Shown: in pieces, positions 34,574 through 43,795 of the stretch
How positions within the stretch are numbered: position 1 is the first letter of the stretch
Layout: every line of letters starts with the position of its first letter
From: Octadecabacter sp. SW4
GTDB lineage: Bacteria > Pseudomonadota > Alphaproteobacteria > Rhodobacterales > Rhodobacteraceae
Direction of reading: 5' to 3'
DNA: 64,000 nt
NCBI RefSeq assembly: GCF_008065155.1
Contig: NZ_CP042819.1
Coordinates: forward strand, 248,001 to 312,000
Translations under genes and position numbers: made by a program
Notes under the pieces: generated by a model
Databases searched by the model: none
What the model saw: the letters and a program-made list of their open reading frames with translations, nothing else
Told to the model about the DNA's origin: nothing

Positions 34574-35658
34574 TCCAGACAGCGATCCCCTTTCTGTTCA
34601 TGCGCGGGGGCACGTCGCGCGGGCCTTATCTGAATCGCGCGGATCTGCCAGAGAATCGCGAGGTGTTGGCAGATGTGTTGGTGGCTATGGTGGGGTCGGG
34701 CCATCTGTTGAATATTGACGGACTTGGCGGGGGTAACGCGGTCACGACAAAGGTCGCGATGCTGTCGCGGTCTGAGGACGACTGGGCTGATGTTGACTAT
34801 TTTTTTGCGCAGGTCAGCGTGGACGACCGCACCGTTGATTTCAAACCAACTTGCGGGAATATCCTGTCCGGCGTTGGGCCTGCGGCCATCGAAATGGGGC
34901 TGATCCCGGCTGATGGAGCGCAAACCACAGTGAATATTCGCGCGGTCAACACCGGTGCGCGGGTCGTCGCGACGGTTCGGACACCGGATGGACAGGTGCG
35001 CTATGACGGCGATGCTGCAATCGACGGCGTGCCCGGGACCGCCGCGCCGGTGAACCTGCAGTTCATGGATACCATTGGCGGCGCGACTGGTGCGTTTCTT
35101 CCGACCGGCAATTTGATCGATACATTCGACGGGGTGGACGTGACCTGCATGGACGTCGCAATGCCCATGGTCATCGCCAAGGCGGAAAGCTTTGGCCTGA
35201 CGGGCTATGAGAGTTCAGAGGCGCTAAACGAAAACGTCGAATTTTTCGAGGCGATGGAGGCTGTGCGCATCAAGGCCGGCGAAGCAATGGGCATCACAGA
35301 GGTTGCCAAATCGGTAACTCCCAAGTTTGGTTTGCTGGCCCCCGCCCAAGAGGGCGGCACTGTCGCAACCCGCTATTTCATGCCGTGGAAGACGCATCCG
35401 ACGATGGCCGTGACCGGGGCGCAATGTCTTGCCTCTTGCGTGTTGACCCCCGGGACCGTGGCCGACGGAATTGCCGCCCGTTCCAATGACCGGCCCGCGA
35501 CTCTCACGCTGGAACATGCCAGCGGTCAAATCGACGTCTTGGTGGACTATGAACTGACATCAGAAGGCATTGATCTGCGCTCTGCCGGGTTGGTCCGCAC
35601 GGCCAGACTTTTGGCGCGGGGCGATGTGTTCATACCCGGATCAGTTTGGACACCATGA
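34570..35658 (+). CDS. PrpF/GalD-family aconitate-type isomerase (tautomerase)
   Basis: A 362-residue protein of the PrpF family (two diaminopimelate-epimerase-like domains). [20 protein letters not shown] is the family N-terminus, [18 protein letters not shown] carries the active-site Cys, and [17 protein letters not shown] and [15 protein letters not shown] are further conserved blocks. Relatives move a double bond in 2-methylaconitate, trans-aconitate or 4-oxalomesaconate. Next to a tricarboxylate importer and a TcuA-like dehydrogenase, an aconitate isomerase role is the best guess. The ATG at 34570 overlaps the tctA stop; the upstream open frame is read-through of tctA. Confidence 0.8.
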
Positions 35659-36611
35659 AGGTTCACATCCTCGACGATTGGTTCGATACGCTGCGCAGCT
35701 TGCCGTGTTTTGACAAGCTCGCGGGGCATGATGTTACCATCTGGACGGATCACGAACCGGAACCTGCGAAACTCGCCGCCCGCGTTCAAGATGCCGAGGC
35801 GCTTGTTTTATTTCGCGAGCGCACGAAGATCGGGGCTGACCTGCTTGAACGCCTCCCGCACCTGCAACTGATCAGCCAACGCAGCGTTTACCCTCATATC
35901 GACGTGCCCGCCTGCACGGCGAACGGCGTGATGCTCTGTTCGAACATGCATAGCGACACACCGTCCTATGCCGCGGCTGAAATGACGCTGGCGCTCATCC
36001 TCGCCAGCTATCGCCAAATCCCGCAGCAAGTCGGGTCGATCCGCGCTGGAAACTGGCAAATCGGTGTGGGCCGAACGTTGCGGGGCCGGACACTCGGGCT
36101 TTACGGGTATGGGCGTATTGCGCAGGCCGTTGCAGGATATGCAGAGGCGATTGGCATGCAAGTGCAATGGTGGGCGTCTGATGATGGACGCGCACGCGCC
36201 AAGGCTGATGGGCGTCGCATTGCAGGTAGTCGGGGCGCGTTTTTTGCGACGTCTGACATTGTGAGCCTGCATGTCCGGCTTAAGCCGATGACGCGGGGCG
36301 TTATCACGGCGGATGACCTGGCCGCGATGACCGCGCGTAGTTTGCTGGTGAATACGTCGCGCTCTGGATTGATCGCGCCGGGTGCGCTTGAGGCGGAAAT
36401 CGCAAAAGGCCGCATCCATGCTGCCGTCGATGTCTTTGATGCAGAGCCTTTGCGGGACACCGCCAACCCTTTGTTGACCCACCCGAATGTCTTGCCAACA
36501 CCCCATATCGGCTACGTCACAGAAGACGAATTCGATCTGCAGTTCAGCGATATCTTCGACCAAATCAACGCCTACGCTGCGGGCCATCCGATTCACGTGA
36601 TCAACCCTTAG
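35655..36611 (+). CDS. D-2-hydroxyacid dehydrogenase family protein
   Basis: A 318-residue NAD-dependent oxidoreductase. The Rossmann motif [19 protein letters not shown] is central. The catalytic Arg lies in [14 protein letters not shown], Glu in [12 protein letters not shown] and His in [12 protein letters not shown], the normal R–E–H triad of the family. It overlaps the PrpF-like gene by ATGA and runs 11 bp into the convergent AbrB-like gene. The substrate may be a 2-keto or 2-hydroxy acid made in the same pathway. Confidence 0.85.
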
Positions 36612-37629
36612 GTTGCTGATTGAACAGGCGGGCTGCAATCGGCGCGCCGACAATCACGGTCACGATCCGCAATACATGGTGGGCAATGACAAAGGCCATA
36701 TCGGCCCCCGCGATCAATGCCAGAACCGTCATCTCTGCCTGACCGCCGGGCGCGAAGGCGAGCAGGGCTTCCATCGGTGGAGCCAATGAGAAGAGATGGA
36801 TGATTTCCACAAAGATCGCCGCAAGGATCAACAAGATCACGCAGAACCCGAGGGCCGCGGCCACATCATGCCGCACTTCCTTGCCGGTGACACCGGCGTA
36901 TTTTGTCCCCACCGTCATGCCGATAAAGAATTGCGCGGCCCAGATTGCCTCTGCCGGGGGGCGGTGCTGCAAGACCCCTGCCAGCGCCAGAATACCCGCC
37001 AGAATCATCGGCCCCAGGATCGACGCGCCGAACAGCCCAATGGCCTTGGCGATTTGCCAGCCGGCCAATCCCGCTACGACCATCAGCAAGAGTTGTGAAA
37101 GCGGCAGCGTTGCCGCTGGCACACCCGGTGGATTGCTAAGGTCAACGCCCCAGTAAGCTTTCAAGATGAATGGCAAGGCCGCGACGATCACCATGACCCG
37201 CGTCGCATGGATGAGTGAAAGGGCCCTGACGTCGCCGCCTGCCTCCTCACCAAAGAGCAGCATGTCCTGCAATCCACCCGGCATCGCGGAATAGTAGCTC
37301 GTGGCGAAATCGAAACCCCACAACCGTTGGAAATAGGGAACCCCGATCAGCCCGATCAGGAACACCATGAGGGGAACCAAGATCAGGGTGGTCCACATGC
37401 CTGCCAAGCTGATGACCAGTGCAGTCGTAAACGTAGCGCCCACCGCGACACCCAGGATCGAGCGCATGGCATTGTTCAAGACGGCGATGCCCTTCATCGG
37501 GACGCCGAGCAGCGCTGCCACCAAACAAGCCGTGATCGGCCCAAGCAACCAAGGCAGGGGCAAGTTCAGCAGGTGAAAGGCCAAGACACCAAGGCCCGCG
37601 ACGACATGCGTGATCCCGATCCTTATCAT
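36601..37629 (-). CDS. AbrB-family (duplicated-domain) membrane protein
   Basis: A 342-residue protein with about ten to eleven membrane helices in two repeats. [18 protein letters not shown] and [10 protein letters not shown] recur as the second-half [18 protein letters not shown] and [33 protein letters not shown] and [20 protein letters not shown] are the paired PGG motifs typical of the AbrB/DUF-type family once annotated as ammonia monooxygenase. It may be a transporter. It overlaps the GntR gene start by ATGA, so the pair is one operon. Confidence 0.82.
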
Positions 37630-38273
37630 CCCCGCATCACTTTCAAGCGATAGCGCAGCGAGGTCTGCAAGTGCGCCTCTGCGGCGGCCCCTGCACCGTC
37701 GATATCCCCCGCGGCCATAGCATCTATGATCTTCCCATGCTGGTGGACCACCGTCGCAATGCGCTCGGCGTCGGCAAGTGTGGTCGGTCCCAGCAGCAAA
37801 AGCGCGTTGTTCATCGCCCGCGCGGCATCAAGCAGGAACCGATTACGGGCCGCCAGATAGATCGCACGATGAAACTTCTGATTGATCGCGGCGGCCTGCG
37901 GCCCATCATCGCCGACGGCCGCGATTTCGTCGTTCAAGGCACCCAGTGCATCAATCTCTGCCTCTGAGGCATGTTTTGCCGCCATTTCTGCGGCTGTTCG
38001 TTCCAGCACCAATCGCATCTCGTACAGCTCGACAACCTCTGTCTGTTCCAACTTGCGGATTACCGCACCGACGCGGGGGCGGTGTTCAATGATGTTCTCG
38101 GCCTCCAGCCGTCGCAGCGCCTCTCGGACGGGTGTGCGGGACAGCGCTAGCCGGTCTGCGACTTCGACCTCACGAAGGCGGTCGCCGGGCTGATAAATCC
38201 CACCCTCAATCGCTTGCATCAGTTTGGTGAAAGCCATACCGCCCTGGGACAGATCGGTTGGATCGTTGGCCAT
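37626..38273 (-). CDS. GntR family regulator (FCD domain) of the tcuA-like gene
   Basis: A regulator of about 215 residues. The winged helix includes GGIYQPGDRLREVEVADRLALSR and TPVREALRRLEAE; the C-terminal FCD domain follows. Two ATG codons are adjacent (38276 and 38273); GAGAGA fits the second better. The protein diverges from the tcuA-like gene, and a 7+7-bp palindrome in the gap is its likely operator. The open frame extends to 38312, which would overlap that operator and is less likely. Confidence 0.87.
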   Translation of the reverse strand: MANDPTDLSQGGMAFTKLMQAIEGGIYQPGDRLREVEVADRLALSRTPVREALRRLEAENIIEHRPRVGAVIRKLEQTEVVELYEMRLVLERTAAEMAAKHASEAEIDALGALNDEIAAVGDDGPQAAAINQKFHRAIYLAARNRFLLDAARAMNNALLLLGPTTLADAERIATVVHQHGKIIDAMAAGDIDGAGAAAEAHLQTSLRYRLKVMRG

Positions 38274-38293
38274 CATCTTCTCTCTTTTCAAAT

Positions 38294-38311
38294 TGTATCC
38301 GCTTGGATACA
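38294..38311. promoter_or_regulatory. GntR operator palindrome
   Basis: TGTATCC-GCTT-GGATACA is a perfect inverted repeat with 7-bp arms. It lies in the 64-bp gap between the divergent GntR gene and the tcuA-like gene. The GTATCC/GGATAC arms are like FCD-type GntR sites. It probably controls both directions. Confidence 0.65.
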
Positions 38312-38337
38312 TAAACGTCTAAAGAGGAGAATCGCAA

Positions 38338-39813
38338 ATGTCAAAGCAGGTCATCGTTGTTGGGTCCGGGAACGCCGCCATGTCTGCGGGCATTGCCGCA
38401 CTTGAGGCGGGCGCGCAGGTCCTGATGCTGGAAAAGGCAGATGAAGCTTTGGCTGGGGGCAATACCAAATACACAGCCGGCGCCATGCGCTTTGCCTATG
38501 ACGGTGCGGACGATTTGATGCCGCTGTTGAAAGACCCGGAAGATCCGCGCCTCGCGGTGACCGACTTTGGCGGCTACACGCAGGCGAAGTTTTCCGAGGA
38601 CCTGCTAATGTTTAATGGCGGGCGCCCTTTGTCGCCCGAGCAAGAGCGGCTCATTGGCGAATCTCTGTCGGCCATGCAATGGCTGGGTGGTCACGGGGTG
38701 AAGTTTGAGCCGATCTACAGTCGTCAAAGCTTTGAAAAGGACGGGCGGCATGTTTTTTGGGGCGGTCTGACACTTGCCGCAGAAAACGAAGGCGTGGGGC
38801 TATTTGAGATGGAGCTTGGGGCCTTCACGCGGCTGGGCGGCATCATACGCTACAATGCCGCCGTGACGGGTCTGCTGACCGAGGACGGGTCTGTCACAGG
38901 TGTGCGCGTTGGCGACGAAGAGATTGCAGCGGACGCGGTGATCCTCGCCTGTGGCGGTTTTGAAGCCAGCACCGATCTGCGCCGCGCGTGGATGGGCGGC
39001 GATTGGGACAAGGCCAAAGTGCGCGGCACGCCGATGAACACCGGGGATGGACTGGTGATGGGGGCACAGGTCGGCGCCCAAACATACGGGTTGATCGACG
39101 GTTGTCACGCGACACCGATGGATTTGCACATGGCAGACTACGGTGGCCTCGGCCTGCCAGCGTCGGAGCGCAAGAATTACCGCAAGATTTGCTACTTCCT
39201 TGGTGTGATGCTGAACGCAAGTGGAGACCGTTTCGTGGATGAAGGCGCGAATTTCCGCAACTACACGTATGCGCAATTCGGCAAGGCGGTGTTAGAGCAG
39301 CCTGGCCATTTCGCGTGGCAAATCTTCGATGCCAAGGTCGATGATCTGCTGTATGCTGAATACCGCTTTCATGATGCGCATTTCGTTGAAGCCGATACGC
39401 TGGATGAGCTGTGCGAGAAACTCGACGGGACCGACCCGCAGGCGGCGCGGTCGACCCTTGATGCCTACAACGCAGCCGTCAACGATGCTGTGCCGTTTGA
39501 TCCGACGTCGCTAGATGGCAAGAACACGCAAGGCCTGCCGCTGCCAAAATCGAACTGGGCGCAGCGGTTGGATACACCACCCTTCAAGGCCTATCCGGTG
39601 ACGGGTGGGATCACCTTCACCTATGGCGGGTTGAAAGTGTCTGAAACGGGTGCCGTGCTCGACAAGTCCGACGCGCCAATCCTCGGGCTTTATGCAGCTG
39701 GAGAAATGGTCGGCGGTGTCTTTTTTGAAGGATATCCGGGCGGGTCCGGCCTGACGTCAGGGACCGTCTTTGGGCGAAATGCCGGACGTGGTGCCGCACG
39801 ATCACCGGTATAG
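38338..39813 (+). CDS. tcuA: FAD-dependent tricarballylate dehydrogenase-like flavoprotein (TcuA type)
   Basis: A 491-residue flavoprotein of the fumarate-reductase/succinate-dehydrogenase type. VIVVGSGNAAMSAGIAALEAG binds FAD, GGNTKYTAGAMRF and VILACGGFEAS are further FAD contacts, and the C-terminal GLYAAGEMVGGVFFEGYPGG is the conserved substrate/FAD loop. The overall pattern resembles TcuA, which oxidises tricarballylate to cis-aconitate. GAGGAGA precedes the ATG. There is no adjacent tcuB iron-sulfur electron-transfer gene, which Salmonella uses to re-oxidise TcuA. Other dicarboxylate or tricarboxylate substrates are possible. Confidence 0.75.
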   Translation: MSKQVIVVGSGNAAMSAGIAALEAGAQVLMLEKADEALAGGNTKYTAGAMRFAYDGADDLMPLLKDPEDPRLAVTDFGGYTQAKFSEDLLMFNGGRPLSPEQERLIGESLSAMQWLGGHGVKFEPIYSRQSFEKDGRHVFWGGLTLAAENEGVGLFEMELGAFTRLGGIIRYNAAVTGLLTEDGSVTGVRVGDEEIAADAVILACGGFEASTDLRRAWMGGDWDKAKVRGTPMNTGDGLVMGAQVGAQTYGLIDGCHATPMDLHMADYGGLGLPASERKNYRKICYFLGVMLNASGDRFVDEGANFRNYTYAQFGKAVLEQPGHFAWQIFDAKVDDLLYAEYRFHDAHFVEADTLDELCEKLDGTDPQAARSTLDAYNAAVNDAVPFDPTSLDGKNTQGLPLPKSNWAQRLDTPPFKAYPVTGGITFTYGGLKVSETGAVLDKSDAPILGLYAAGEMVGGVFFEGYPGGSGLTSGTVFGRNAGRGAARSPV

Positions 39814-40159: not shown

Positions 40160-41251
40160 CTATTGGCGTTGAAGTGAGCGGCCCTCGGCCTTGAGTTTTT
40201 TGTTGAGGATTTGCCGGACCTTGATGCCAGCGCCATCAGCCCCAAGCGTGACCTCTAGAAAATCAAGGCCCCGCGGGTCGGCGGCAACGCTCGCTTGCAG
40301 CTTTTCCAGCAGGTGTTTGTCTTCGTCAAATGCGGCAGTGACGCTTGCGCGGGTCTTTTCCGCCACCACATCGGTCAGCGATGGCACATCAAACGCGGCC
40401 ATCCAGAAATAGTGTGTCTTGCCGCGTTGCGCTGGCGTTACGATATGGCACCCGCGCACGATGAAATCTGAGCGATGTCCTTCCTCGGGTGCGGGATCAT
40501 GCACATTCCAATCCGAGAACGAAATCGCCAGCGACGGCATCCGCCCCTTTTGAACGCGTTTGATTGGTTTGTCCTCCGGAAGTCCCATGCCCGCACAAAA
40601 GAGCGGCGAGAGCGGCGCGAGGTCGAACTCCTGCTCGTAGCAGATCGTCTCTCCGTCCATGTAGGTATCGGGCGCGGTGATCCAGTCATCTTGCTTGAAG
40701 GTATCCTTGTGCAGGAACGCGATATGGGTCAGATCCAGCACGTTTTCGCGGATCAATACCCAGTTTGCGGCCACTTCATAATAGCCATGGACCGGGGCCC
40801 AGCCCGGATCGCTTTGATATTCGACTTCGGGCGGGTCGCAATCGATAGCGTCTTGGTCGCCCATCCAGATCCAGACATAGGCGCCAGCCTCGCGCACGGC
40901 AAACGACGGGATTTCGGCCGTCTTGGGCCTCATATGCTGTGTCGGTGCTTTGGTGCAACGTCCGGCCTTGTTGAACTCCATCCCGTGGTAGGGGCAGATG
41001 ATCTTGTCGCCCTCCACATGGCCTTCGCTGAGTGGCGCCCAGCGGTGCGGGCAGCGGTCATAGAGCGCGGCGGGCGTGCCATCTTCGAGGCGATAAAGAA
41101 CGACGGGCGTCTCCAGGAGCCAACGGGCCAGCGGTTTTGTCGTTAACTCATCGCGATGCGCGGCGACCCACCACATATTGCGCGGATAGTTGTCTTCAAG
41201 CATCCCGTTGGGAATGGTCTGGCCATTTGTCCGCTTTGCCTCGTCATTCAT
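40160..41251 (-). CDS. Rieske non-haem iron oxygenase, VanA-like
   Basis: A 363-residue oxygenase component. The Rieske cluster ligands are Cys67-x-His69 in DRCPHRWAPLS and Cys86/His89 in ICPYHGMEFN. The mononuclear iron site lies in ENVLDLTHIAFLHKDTF. The layout matches vanillate O-demethylase oxygenases, which cleave methyl ethers to formaldehyde. No reductase partner (VanB type) is encoded nearby, so it must borrow one. It overlaps the PanB gene start by ATGA, forming a two-gene operon. Confidence 0.85.
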   Translation of the reverse strand: MNDEAKRTNGQTIPNGMLEDNYPRNMWWVAAHRDELTTKPLARWLLETPVVLYRLEDGTPAALYDRCPHRWAPLSEGHVEGDKIICPYHGMEFNKAGRCTKAPTQHMRPKTAEIPSFAVREAGAYVWIWMGDQDAIDCDPPEVEYQSDPGWAPVHGYYEVAANWVLIRENVLDLTHIAFLHKDTFKQDDWITAPDTYMDGETICYEQEFDLAPLSPLFCAGMGLPEDKPIKRVQKGRMPSLAISFSDWNVHDPAPEEGHRSDFIVRGCHIVTPAQRGKTHYFWMAAFDVPSLTDVVAEKTRASVTAAFDEDKHLLEKLQASVAADPRGLDFLEVTLGADGAGIKVRQILNKKLKAEGRSLQRQ

Positions 41252-42114
41252 GTCGCATCCTCCCTGTTCAAGAGCGCTGCAAACCGCTCGATTTCTTCGG
41301 GTTTCATCTGATAACTATGGTCGGCATCTGGAAAGCGGCCAGATCGCACATCCTCGGCATAGGCCGCAAAGGAATCTGTCGCATCTTGGGCAAGGTTGGC
41401 GTAGCGCTTGGCAAATTTGGGTTTGAACGTATCGAACGCGCCGAGCAGGTCGTAGCCGTTCAGCAGTTGACATGTGCCCGCCGCGCCTGCGCCAATCGAA
41501 AAGGTGAAGATGGCGACCGCGTCGTCGACGGCCTTGCCAACCTCGTAAGGCATCGCCTCGATTTCTAGGCCGATGGCGCCAGCCGCCTCGATGGCGCGCG
41601 CGTTCTCGACGATCTCGATTGCGGCTTCGGCGGTGCGGCCCTGCATTTTGAAACCACCCATCTGGTGGACTTTATGCGGCAACAGGCCGACATGGCTCAT
41701 CACGGGCACGCCAGCATCTGCGACAGCGCGGATGATATGCGCGCCTTCGCGGCCCAACTGCAATTTCAGCGCGTCCGCACCGCTTTCTTTCATCATGCGC
41801 ACCGCATTGGTGACCGCCAGCTCGGGCGTCGCGTAAGAGCCGTAGGGCATGGACACTATGCACAGCGTATTGGGCGCCCCACGCCGGACCGCTTGGGTGT
41901 GCATGATCATCTGATCAACCGTCATCGCGAGGGTATTTTCGTGGCCATGTAACGTCATGCCCAGGCTATCGCCCACCCCGACAATATCGACGCCTGCGCG
42001 CTCGGCCCATGTTGCGGTCAGCACTTCTCCGACGGCGACCATGACCAGCCGTTCGCCTGCCGCCTTTCGGGCAGCCAGTTCCGGCAGTGTCAGTTTCTTG
42101 CGGGTCGAGGTCAT
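41248..42114 (-). CDS. panB: PanB-family ketopantoate hydroxymethyltransferase paralogue
   Basis: A 288-residue barrel enzyme of the PanB family. VDIVGVGDSLGMTLHGHENT carries the metal-binding Asp, HTQAVRRGAPNTLCIVSMPYGSY the next conserved block, and ADALKLQLGREGAHII and VPVMSHVGLLPHKVHQMGGF the Lys and His region. PanB transfers a hydroxymethyl group from methylene-tetrahydrofolate to a 2-keto acid. Pairing with a Rieske oxygenase rather than panC is unusual and suggests another one-carbon transfer. It diverges from a MarR gene across an operator palindrome. Confidence 0.82.
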   Translation of the reverse strand: MTSTRKKLTLPELAARKAAGERLVMVAVGEVLTATWAERAGVDIVGVGDSLGMTLHGHENTLAMTVDQMIMHTQAVRRGAPNTLCIVSMPYGSYATPELAVTNAVRMMKESGADALKLQLGREGAHIIRAVADAGVPVMSHVGLLPHKVHQMGGFKMQGRTAEAAIEIVENARAIEAAGAIGLEIEAMPYEVGKAVDDAVAIFTFSIGAGAAGTCQLLNGYDLLGAFDTFKPKFAKRYANLAQDATDSFAAYAEDVRSGRFPDADHSYQMKPEEIERFAALLNREDAT

Positions 42115-42149
42115 TCACGTCCTTTGCGACCATGGAATCGTCGCATTTG

Positions 42150-42167
42150 TTGTTCCATTTGGAACAA
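42150..42167. promoter_or_regulatory. MarR-type operator palindrome
   Basis: TTGTTCCA-TT-TGGAACAA is a perfect inverted repeat with 8-bp arms, centred in the 94-bp divergent gap between the PanB/Rieske operon and the MarR gene. Its length and symmetry fit a MarR dimer site controlling both directions. Confidence 0.7.
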
Positions 42168-42208
42168 TATGCGCTAGGACGGATGTAGCTGGCAATGGGC
42201 AACCGATC

Positions 42209-42682
42209 ATGGACAGATCAAACGACACGGACCTGACGCGGATCTTCGACACGATCGAATACCCGGAGGCGTATCGTATCACCTATCTGGCCAACGCCAT
42301 CGTGTTCCCCGCCTATGCAGAGATTAAGCGGGACTTCGGCTTGGTGCGTGCCGAATACATCCTACTGGCCTGTCTTTCGCATTTCGACATCCTCACAGCG
42401 CAGGACGTTGCCCGCATCTCGCGGCGTCCACGCAATACCATCAGCCGCGCCGTGCACCGGATGTTGAAAGATGGCTACCTTGACCGCGCACCTGATCCAG
42501 CGGACGGACGGCAATCGTGGTTGCAAATCACGCCCGCCGGTCGCGCGTTACACGCACAGATCAGCGTCTATCTGAGCCGCAGACAAGACGACGTTCTAGC
42601 AGGGCTGAGCACGGATGAACGCGAAACGCTTGCGACACTCTTGAAGAAAGCGGCACTTAATGCTGCAAACCTAGACGACTGA
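42209..42682 (+). CDS. MarR family transcriptional regulator
   Basis: A 157-residue winged-helix regulator. FDILTAQDVARISRRPRNTISRAVHRMLK is the recognition region (given here only to locate it, about residues 68–96), and the wing follows with APDPADGRQSWLQITPAGRA. The ATG at 42209 is the first codon giving a MarR-like N-terminus; the longer frame from 41957 is antisense to panB. It is followed 9 bp later by the DmdA-like gene, so these two form one unit opposite the Rieske/PanB pair. Confidence 0.87.
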   Translation: MDRSNDTDLTRIFDTIEYPEAYRITYLANAIVFPAYAEIKRDFGLVRAEYILLACLSHFDILTAQDVARISRRPRNTISRAVHRMLKDGYLDRAPDPADGRQSWLQITPAGRALHAQISVYLSRRQDDVLAGLSTDERETLATLLKKAALNAANLDD

Positions 42683-42691
42683 GGCACCCAA

Positions 42692-43795
42692 ATGGCTGAG
42701 ATTGGACCCAACACCCGACTGCGCGTGTCGCCCTTTTACGAGGCGACGATTGGAGAAGGTGTCACTGCTTTTTCCCCTTATAACGCGATGCTCATGCCGG
42801 TGTCCTATGGCGATCCGGATGCTGAATATGATCGGCTGATGAACGGCGTGGCCCAATGGGATGTCAGCGTCGAACGACAGGTGGAAATCAAGGGACCGGA
42901 TGCCGCGCATCTGGTGCAGCTTATCTCGGTGCGCGACCTGTCGGCCATTGATGTTGGCAAGGGCAAATACATTCCGATGTGTGACCATCGCGGCGTGCTG
43001 ATCAATGACCCCGTGGTCCTGAAGCACGAGGATGGGACCTATTGGTTGTCGATTGGCGACAACAATATCCTGATGTGGGCACGGGCCATTGCCGCTGAGC
43101 GCGGCCTGAAGGTTGAGATTTGCGAACCTGACGTTTCGCCCATGGCGGTTCAAGGCCCCAAGGCCGAAGATGCGGTTGCCGCAGTCTTTGGGGATTGGGT
43201 GCGGGCGCTGAAATACTTTTGGTTTGCCCCGGCTGAGATAAACGGCATTCCGCTGATTATCCAGCGGTCGGGCTATTCCAAACAGGGCGGCTTCGAAATC
43301 TACCTGCGCGATGGATCCCGTGGCACCGAGCTGTGGAACATCATCAAGGAGGCTGGGCAACCCTGGGGCATCGGCCCCGGCAATCCCAATCCGATTGAGC
43401 GGATCGAAAGCGGTTTGCTGTCCTATGGCGGCGACACTGACGATAAGACCAATCCGTTCGAGGTGCGGCTGGGGAAATACGTCGATCTCGATCTTGATGA
43501 CGAGGTCGTCGGCATCAAAGCCCTAAGGCGGATCAAAGCCGAGGGGGTCAAGCGTCAGCAGTTGGGCATTGTGCTGGACAATTCCGAACGCCACCCCGGT
43601 CACGCGATTTGGTATGACATGCTAAAAGACGGCGAGCGTGTGGGGCACATGACCTGCGGGGCGTGGTCGCCTCGCGCGCATTCCATGATCGGATTTGCGT
43701 TGGTTGGGGCAGACAGGGCGGTCGGAGACAAGGTCGATGTCATCCGTGGCGGGTATCGTGACCCCGCAACGCTTTGCCCATTGCCGTTTTTCTAG
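42692..43795 (+). CDS. DmdA-like tetrahydrofolate-dependent demethylase (GcvT family)
   Basis: A 367-residue folate-binding protein of the GcvT/DmdA group. NGVAQWDVSVERQVEIKGPD, VLINDPVVLKHEDGTYWLSI, SPMAVQGPKAEDA, QRSGYSKQGGFEIYL and NPIERIESGLLSYGGD follow the DMSP demethylase DmdA block by block, and the length matches. DmdA moves a methyl group from DMSP to tetrahydrofolate. Paralogues act on other methylated compounds, and the Rieske/PanB neighbours are not typical of dmdA loci, so the substrate is left open. Confidence 0.78.
   Translation: MAEIGPNTRLRVSPFYEATIGEGVTAFSPYNAMLMPVSYGDPDAEYDRLMNGVAQWDVSVERQVEIKGPDAAHLVQLISVRDLSAIDVGKGKYIPMCDHRGVLINDPVVLKHEDGTYWLSIGDNNILMWARAIAAERGLKVEICEPDVSPMAVQGPKAEDAVAAVFGDWVRALKYFWFAPAEINGIPLIIQRSGYSKQGGFEIYLRDGSRGTELWNIIKEAGQPWGIGPGNPNPIERIESGLLSYGGDTDDKTNPFEVRLGKYVDLDLDDEVVGIKALRRIKAEGVKRQQLGIVLDNSERHPGHAIWYDMLKDGERVGHMTCGAWSPRAHSMIGFALVGADRAVGDKVDVIRGGYRDPATLCPLPFF

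Follow-up and report, generated by a model that had tools for sequence, protein, structure and literature searches.

A conserved four-gene module with a Rieske oxygenase, a PanB paralogue and a DmdA-like protein in Octadecabacter sp. SW4: a candidate pathway for a methylated substrate

Four adjacent genes of Octadecabacter sp. SW4 almost certainly constitute a conserved module and not a chance neighborhood. They are located in a window of 64,000 nucleotides (assembly GCF_008065155.1, contig NZ_CP042819.1, positions 248,001 to 312,000 of the forward strand; coordinates below count from the first nucleotide of this window). The genes encode a Rieske oxygenase (RO) of the VanA_C/DdmC type, a paralogue of PanB, a MarR-family regulator and a DmdA-like GcvT-fold protein, presumably a tetrahydrofolate-dependent methyltransferase, which is not DmdA itself. 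The PanB paralogue belongs to the KPHMT fold family and is referred to as PanB2, a name coined in the present analysis. Judged from its sequences, the module is probably a MarR-controlled catabolic pathway for a methylated substrate. That this substrate contains sulfur is a tentative reading, somewhat short of probable. An initial annotation of the window had proposed a pathway for an unrecognised methylated substrate, and this view is supported, as are the co-inheritance of the genes and their difference from vanillate, dimethylsulfoniopropionate (DMSP) and pantothenate loci.

Composition and co-inheritance of the module

The RO (40160..41251, minus strand; 363 aa) matches the Pfam families Rieske and VanA_C with 75.4 and 146.5 bits, and its gene shares a 4-bp overlap with that of PanB2 (41248..42114, minus strand; 288 aa; Pantoate_transf, 289.4 bits, residues 7-263). 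Divergent from both are the genes of the MarR regulator (42209..42682, plus strand; 157 aa; MarR_2, 40.3 bits) and, starting 9 bp behind it, of the GcvT-like protein (42692..43795, plus strand; 367 aa; GCV_T, 142.8 bits, with GCV_T_C). The start of the regulator is best read as the ATG at 42209, as an alternative longer open reading frame (ORF) from 41957 would cross the promoter. The initial annotation had described this arrangement, with a palindrome between the two operons, and had remarked that the oxygenase lacks a reductase gene. Both observations hold: no reductase gene was found within the module, according to the ORF list of the window and the Pfam families of the nearest neighbors. 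For an oxygenase of the DdmC type, it is not unusual that no reductase gene lies alongside.

Relatives were collected by a pattern scan with the window PanB protein, which yielded at least 80 loci; locus counts refer to the matches listed. PanB2 is present at 63 of these (L014-L076, 61-94% PanB identity), and 17 loci (L077-L093, 43% or less) represent housekeeping-PanB controls. Because the frequencies derive from one scan, among the matches listed, and the 63 loci include near-identical pairs (e.g. L021/L024 and L033/L039), they hold for this set only. Neighboring ORFs were called by a simple longest-frame rule, under which antisense frames sometimes masked genes; the final partner counts were therefore obtained by tblastn with author-chosen identity thresholds. 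Since some loci are short, partners scored absent may lie past the contig end.

The RO is encoded at 40 of the 63 PanB2 loci and at none of the 17 controls. It is positioned 3' of PanB2 on the same strand in all 40 loci, and within 92 bp in 38. A MarR homologue adjoins the module at 31 loci, a GcvT protein of the window type (type 1) at 25 and one of a second type at six (one a broken frame), and the two types never share one of the 63 loci. Further partners are PhyH (16 loci), HpcH (11), GntR (7), DctP (4) and GlcD (4). None of these scored partners (RO, MarR, both GcvT types, PhyH, HpcH, GntR, DctP, GlcD) was found at the 17 controls with the same thresholds. The 40 RO loci comprise 27 with MarR, seven with GntR, none with both and six with neither; a GntR gene replaces MarR in seven MarR-less loci. 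Across 198 genomes of the family, PanB2 at 60% identity or more occurs in seven, and an RO at E 1e-60 or better in the same seven (Fisher p 5e-13, relatedness ignored). In three further genomes, the PanB matches are at 45-50% and an RO at this E threshold is missing. PanB2 and RO are on different contigs in one of the seven carriers (G172), and PanB2 is in two pieces in another (G109). The possibility, raised in the initial annotation, that the genes are conserved only separately does not agree with these loci, in which they recur together.

According to the record titles, the hosts are marine Alphaproteobacteria (Roseobacters, SAR116), some Gammaproteobacteria and Acidimicrobiales. Culturable marine hosts include Shimia sp. 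Alg240-R146 and Pelagimonas varians DSM 23678, the latter with a GntR gene in place of MarR. The module crosses phyla, as the Acidimicrobiales loci (L061-L064, L066, L067) carry GcvT, PanB and RO genes in line, with a divergent MarR gene in five of the six. A search of 388 plasmid records gave no match above 60%; the best, at 51%, has an uninformative context. The record of L028 is titled Oceanobacillus sp. HTM 045 and harbors a Rhodobacteraceae-type module, the same gene being present in a family genome (G004:C400), and the title is likely a mislabel. At L076 and on contig C56 of G109, PanB2 is split into two frames by decay or an assembly error. In the window, the module is preceded (35646-39813) by genes for a 2-hydroxyacid dehydrogenase, an AbrB-type membrane protein, a GntR regulator and a TcuA-like FAD dehydrogenase (534 bits, cut-off 369). 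Counterparts of the GntR (46%) and TcuA-like (49%) genes lie beside PanB2 in L031.

The MarR operator

The predicted MarR operator, TTGTTCCA-TT-TGGAACAA (42150..42167, no strand), is a perfect 8+8 palindrome with 0 mismatches and the sole match in the window at up to 3 mismatches. Shuffled windows contained a mean of 0.27 matches at this tolerance, with at least one match in 27 of 100 shuffles. The genome (3.54 Mb) harbors this single site at up to 2 mismatches; at 3 mismatches it contains 12 sites, compared to 14 for a control pattern. Among 32 MarR-bearing loci (31 listed plus the window), the core GTTCCN4GGAAC is exact in 30 and has 1 mismatch in two, and it spans Alphaproteobacteria to Acidimicrobiales. 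No exact core occurred in 6400 shuffled regions, in which base composition only was preserved and for which six long regions were trimmed to 110 bases next to MarR. The exact sequence TTGTTCCN4GGAACAA is present in 18 of 49 PanB2-locus genomes, once in each and always in the module promoter, and absent from the other 31; a reversed control pattern was found once in each of three of the 49.

This palindromic site of the divergent promoter is conserved alongside the regulator, and from its conservation we infer that the module is under one MarR operator. The initial suggestion that a single MarR controls both operons is strengthened by the exactness of the core and by the single genomic site. 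In some relatives, extra cores precede the DctP gene of a tripartite ATP-independent periplasmic (TRAP) transporter (two in L036, one in L058), the core is also located upstream of PanB2 in L068, and an operator with 1 mismatch precedes a PhyH-HpcH pair in L186, which is from the same genome as L065. A larger regulon in the window genome was considered and rejected, as no second operator occurs there at up to 2 mismatches.

PanB2 and the DmdA-like protein

The window PanB2 contains a full-length Pantoate_transf domain and exceeds the NCBIfam panB cut-offs (TIGR00222, 249.8 vs 207.55). In alignment to E. coli PanB, however, it harbors S for D84 and Q for E114, residues that, together with D45, we take to bind or surround the metal. 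At 60% identity or more there are 64 loci (those 63 listed and L119): all have Q as the E114 equivalent, and the D84 equivalent is S in 45, A in 18 and unread in one. Three loci at 50-51% identity show C and Q at these positions, and 19 of the 20 rows below 46% show D and E; the remaining one (L113, 25%) is unalignable there. The equivalents of D45, S46, K112 and E181 are kept in every row read and that of H136 in all but one; the window protein retains all five. In the PanB tree, PanB2 forms its own clade (support 100/98). This tree was built from 60 of the 65 PanB2 rows (window included, broken or short rows dropped), thinned to 31, and from 17 of the 20 rows below 46%. The metal site of PanB2 thus appears to be altered, a feature that is new in this analysis.

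According to the accessible text of two published studies, PanB requires a metal (PMC7770189, PMC4814558). The initial annotation had proposed that the PanB-like enzyme uses a folate-bound one-carbon unit. Its family assignment stands, but such canonical use is doubtful because PanB2 is without two conserved acidic metal-site residues. Automatic labels can mislead here, since the window protein passes the NCBI panB cut-off despite its changed metal site. A role as housekeeping PanB, which the initial annotation had allowed for, was rejected on the basis of the metal-site change and of a separate panBC copy elsewhere in the genome (G000:C1:2721535), whose panB adjoins panC (254.3, cut-off 212.75) and is 39% identical to PanB2. 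PanB2 is therefore neither the sole nor the panC-linked pantothenate gene. It differs from PanB (KPHMT, EC 2.1.2.11) in its distinct clade, in the replacement of both acidic residues in every readable member and in being co-inherited with an oxygenase instead of accompanying panC.

The GcvT-like protein of the window scores 363.6 bits against the NCBIfam model of DMSP demethylase (NF009133), below the cut-off of 410. The true DmdA of the same genome reaches 660.8 bits and adjoins an AcuI-like gene of the acrylyl-CoA reductase family, which falls just below its own cut-off (422.9 vs 440). In a tree of 68 GcvT proteins, module type 1 and its relatives are apart from DmdA. The window protein lies outside a group of seven rows (support 100/99) that comprises P. 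ubique DmdA, the genome's DmdA and module lineage 2, although the position of P. ubique DmdA is unsure due to its long branch. This tree leaves out nine rows, which were truncated, duplicated a gene already fetched or belonged to a remote family. A non-module row (L111) nests within type 1, so that this type is not a single clade in the strict sense, and non-module relatives at 49-66% identity occur in varied contexts that fix no substrate. On the grounds of its score below the cut-off, its place in the tree and the separate DmdA next to the AcuI-like gene, the window protein was rejected as a true DmdA; tight clustering with true DMSP demethylases, envisaged as an alternative in the initial annotation, is not seen for it.

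Type 2 (L020, L026, L036, L038 and L058 in the tree) is placed within the DmdA group, where it adjoins the DmdA of the window genome (98/90) and P. ubique DmdA branches outside the two, and exceeds the DmdA cut-off in L020 (448.5) and L036 (415.9, a shortened read). Given this placement, lineage 2 was not rejected as a true DmdA and may be DmdA in the wide sense. Its frame in L025, among the rows left out of the tree, holds a stop. The Asp aligned with Asp108 of P. ubique DmdA, presumably a folate-site residue, is kept in all 68 rows. The presence of two DmdA-like lineages in one slot suggests that the same reaction is needed in both cases, and the second lineage favors a sulfonium substrate.

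The module shares with DMSP demethylation (DmdABCD) a DmdA-like GcvT-fold protein, marine Roseobacter and SAR116 hosts and, beside some members, a gene of the methanethiol-oxidase family. It differs in that the window module contains no DmdB, DmdC or DmdD, its GcvT protein is outside the DmdA group and its Rieske and PanB2 proteins have no counterpart, whereas the true DmdA is encoded elsewhere; lineage 2, inside the DmdA group and above the cut-off at the two loci named, limits this difference. Housekeeping panBC and true dmdA are both elsewhere in the genome. The module is not a standard vanillate, DMSP or pantothenate locus, as had been stated initially.

Candidate substrates and pathway

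The context in relatives leans towards sulfonium or methylthio chemistry rather than O- or N-methyl substrates. An SBP56 gene directly follows HpcH, a CitE/RipC-like protein below both cut-offs, in L026, L048 and L058. The same pair is found away from the module in L182 (genome of L060) and L190 (genome of L059), and in L186 an IclR gene is located between the two. SBP56 is the methanethiol-oxidase family in the accessible text of PMC5739008, and an IclR neighbor in several loci is a further similarity to MtoX described there. Long-form SBP56 proteins (defined by the authors' cut at 640 bits, set after seeing the scores) occur in three of seven PanB2 genomes and 21 of 191 other family genomes (p 0.04, relatedness ignored), which is a weak association. 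Genes for Cys/Met pyridoxal phosphate (PLP) enzymes neighbor PanB2 in L050, L052 and L054. Solved relatives of the DctP proteins of L036 and L059 include keto-acid-binding and lactate-binding proteins, and in the L036 protein the Arg and the Glu-Trp of the alignment, presumably functional residues, are conserved. In L051 and L053, a gene for a GlcD-type FAD-linked oxidase immediately precedes PanB2; in L059 and L060 it is part of the operon. Together, these leads point, without proof, to a 2-hydroxy or 2-oxo acid with methylated sulfur.

Several observations weigh against the best overall explanation given below. The module-side SBP56 proteins reach 156.5, 163 and 161.3 bits against the MtoX model (NF052453, cut-off 650) and 689-696 bits for PF05694; they represent another subfamily, accompanied by ferredoxin and CoA-binding genes. 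SBP56 is absent from the window genome, and its presence in 26 of 50 PanB2 genomes compares with 68 of 198 family genomes. A Cys/Met PLP gene is also located near a housekeeping-PanB control (L080), and CoA-transferase genes also lie near controls L078 and L079. The best solved DctP relatives carry general names only, one being annotated for sorbitol/mannitol (2hzk, which we take to be the keto-acid protein TakP). In the window genome, which has no second operator, neither a transporter nor a dehydrogenase can thus be linked to the module. No scored partner was found at 10 of the 63 PanB2 loci, a metal-poor PanB speaks against plain 2-oxo-acid enolisation, the DdmC and VanA relatives of the RO are O-demethylases, and L050 and L052 adjoin amine-oxidase-type genes that would fit an N-methyl substrate.

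Other gene groups were noted in these neighborhoods. L177, L183 and L191 (and in part L147) contain a conserved operon of SBP56, a 2Fe-2S ferredoxin and a CoA-binding protein, together with IclR and another DmdA-like protein, which looks like a separate organosulfur cluster; FMN-dependent dehydrogenases, a further keto-acid lead, are encoded beside it in L178 and L189. In the SAR116 loci L059 and L060, PanB2 is in line with PhyH, the GlcD-type oxidase, D-threonate-kinase-like and PdxA-like genes, with a TRAP transporter beside them (families scanned in L059). In L047 and L049, PanB2-PhyH is located beside two luciferase-type monooxygenases, a second Rieske protein and a four-domain rhodanese (families scanned in L047); a TauD gene is also part of the L047 neighborhood.

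Among solved structures, dicamba O-demethylase DdmC is the best match of the RO (E 1.1e-43), and the RO shares with DdmC and VanA the Rieske plus VanA_C architecture and the motifs of the cluster and the iron site. These motifs (CxH-x16-CxxH and D-x2-H-x4-H) are complete in the window protein and in 39 of 42 alignment rows; in the other three rows the alignment is partial or broken, and one of these shows other letters at the alignment edge. Unlike vanillate demethylase VanAB, the window module has no adjacent VanB reductase, nor a ferredoxin, and its partner genes differ.

Rieske N-demethylases are also among the solved relatives of the RO, and trimethylamine N-oxide (TMAO) demethylase is a relative of GcvT. 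The same module might thus act on a betaine or N-methyl amino acid, with the GcvT-like protein, the RO and PhyH taking off methyl groups one after another. DAO and sarcosine-oxidase-like frames beside PanB2-PhyH in L050, and the same frame clusters in L052, would agree with this. However, these oxidases are on the opposite strand and restricted to two loci, the GcvT lineages cluster with DmdA or close to it while dimethylglycine oxidases score far lower, and the SBP56 and Cys/Met PLP neighbors point to sulfur, with the reservation that a PLP gene adjoins one control. An N-methyl substrate is unlikely.

An aryl or alkyl ether is a less likely substrate still. The RO would then release formaldehyde as an O-demethylase, in line with its DdmC relationship and its VanA_C domain, and the GcvT-like protein would be a LigM-like O-demethylase. 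LigM and DesA are indeed distant relatives of this protein, but with 35-44 bits, compared to 364 for DmdA; both GcvT lineages are DmdA-like, and no ring-cleavage enzyme was found among the selected neighbor proteins put through Pfam. It is equally improbable that the RO hydroxylates a C-methyl group to CH2OH, which PanB2 would remove as formaldehyde or methylene-folate in a reversal of ketopantoate synthesis while the GcvT-like protein takes a separate methyl group: PanB2-RO is the tightest pair, 4beta-methylsterol monooxygenase is the best NCBIfam match of the RO (78 bits, cut-off 600) and PanB2 retains the equivalents of E. coli D45, K112, H136 and E181, but the loss of the D84 and E114 equivalents leaves a weaker site for an enolate-stabilising metal and 23 of the 63 loci have no scored RO.

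Among the matches listed, no title or opening of an abstract describes the gene set; most subscription journals and preprints were outside the scope of this search, and novelty is unproven. Queries for PanB, Rieske and demethylase, or for PanB, vanillate, aminomethyltransferase and marine, found nothing related. Homarine catabolism was considered and dropped, as the literature gave no link to these genes among the matches listed. Betaine-lipid head groups were a further, purely speculative candidate.

The best overall explanation, a tentative one, is a module for the demethylation of a sulfonium acid. The likeliest substrate class would be 2-hydroxy- or 2-oxo-acids that carry a dimethylsulfonio group and are distinct from DMSP; one example is 4-dimethylsulfonio-2-hydroxybutyrate (DMSHB), a likely osmolyte upstream of DMSP. 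We infer the substrate and every catalytic step. A small methylated carboxylate would be taken up from sea water, and MarR, bound to the palindrome, would keep the two operons repressed as long as neither the substrate nor an intermediate is available. The DmdA-like protein, as its family and the conserved folate-site Asp suggest, would pass a methyl group to tetrahydrofolate, the most likely source being a dimethylsulfonium center. The RO, helped or elsewhere replaced by the 2-oxoglutarate dioxygenase PhyH, would oxidise the remaining methyl or methylthio-bearing carbon. PanB2 may then catalyse a C-C bond reaction on the resulting 2-oxo-acid-like intermediate, with the normal metal site no longer used. 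Where present, the CitE-like lyase HpcH and the SBP56 protein would complete the route.

DMSHB is likely an osmolyte according to the accessible text of PMC11306096, and it is an unlikely but specific candidate for the substrate. In the corresponding route, which is slightly less likely yet, the DmdA-like protein would form 4-methylthio-2-hydroxybutyrate (MTHB) and 5-methyl-folate, a 2-hydroxyacid dehydrogenase would convert MTHB to 4-methylthio-2-oxobutyrate, and PanB2, together with the oxygenase, would cleave the latter into pyruvate-level carbon, methanethiol and a one-carbon unit bound to folate. Marine bacteria turn over dimethylsulfonioacetate (DMSA) and gonyol with release of methanethiol, and the accessible text of this study does not name the genes (PMC7221440). 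The module makes the search for genes of dimethylsulfonium-osmolyte turnover directly testable, with its operator as a diagnostic mark. If true, the DMSHB route would be a hitherto unknown part of marine sulfur cycling and would give the PanB fold a new reaction.

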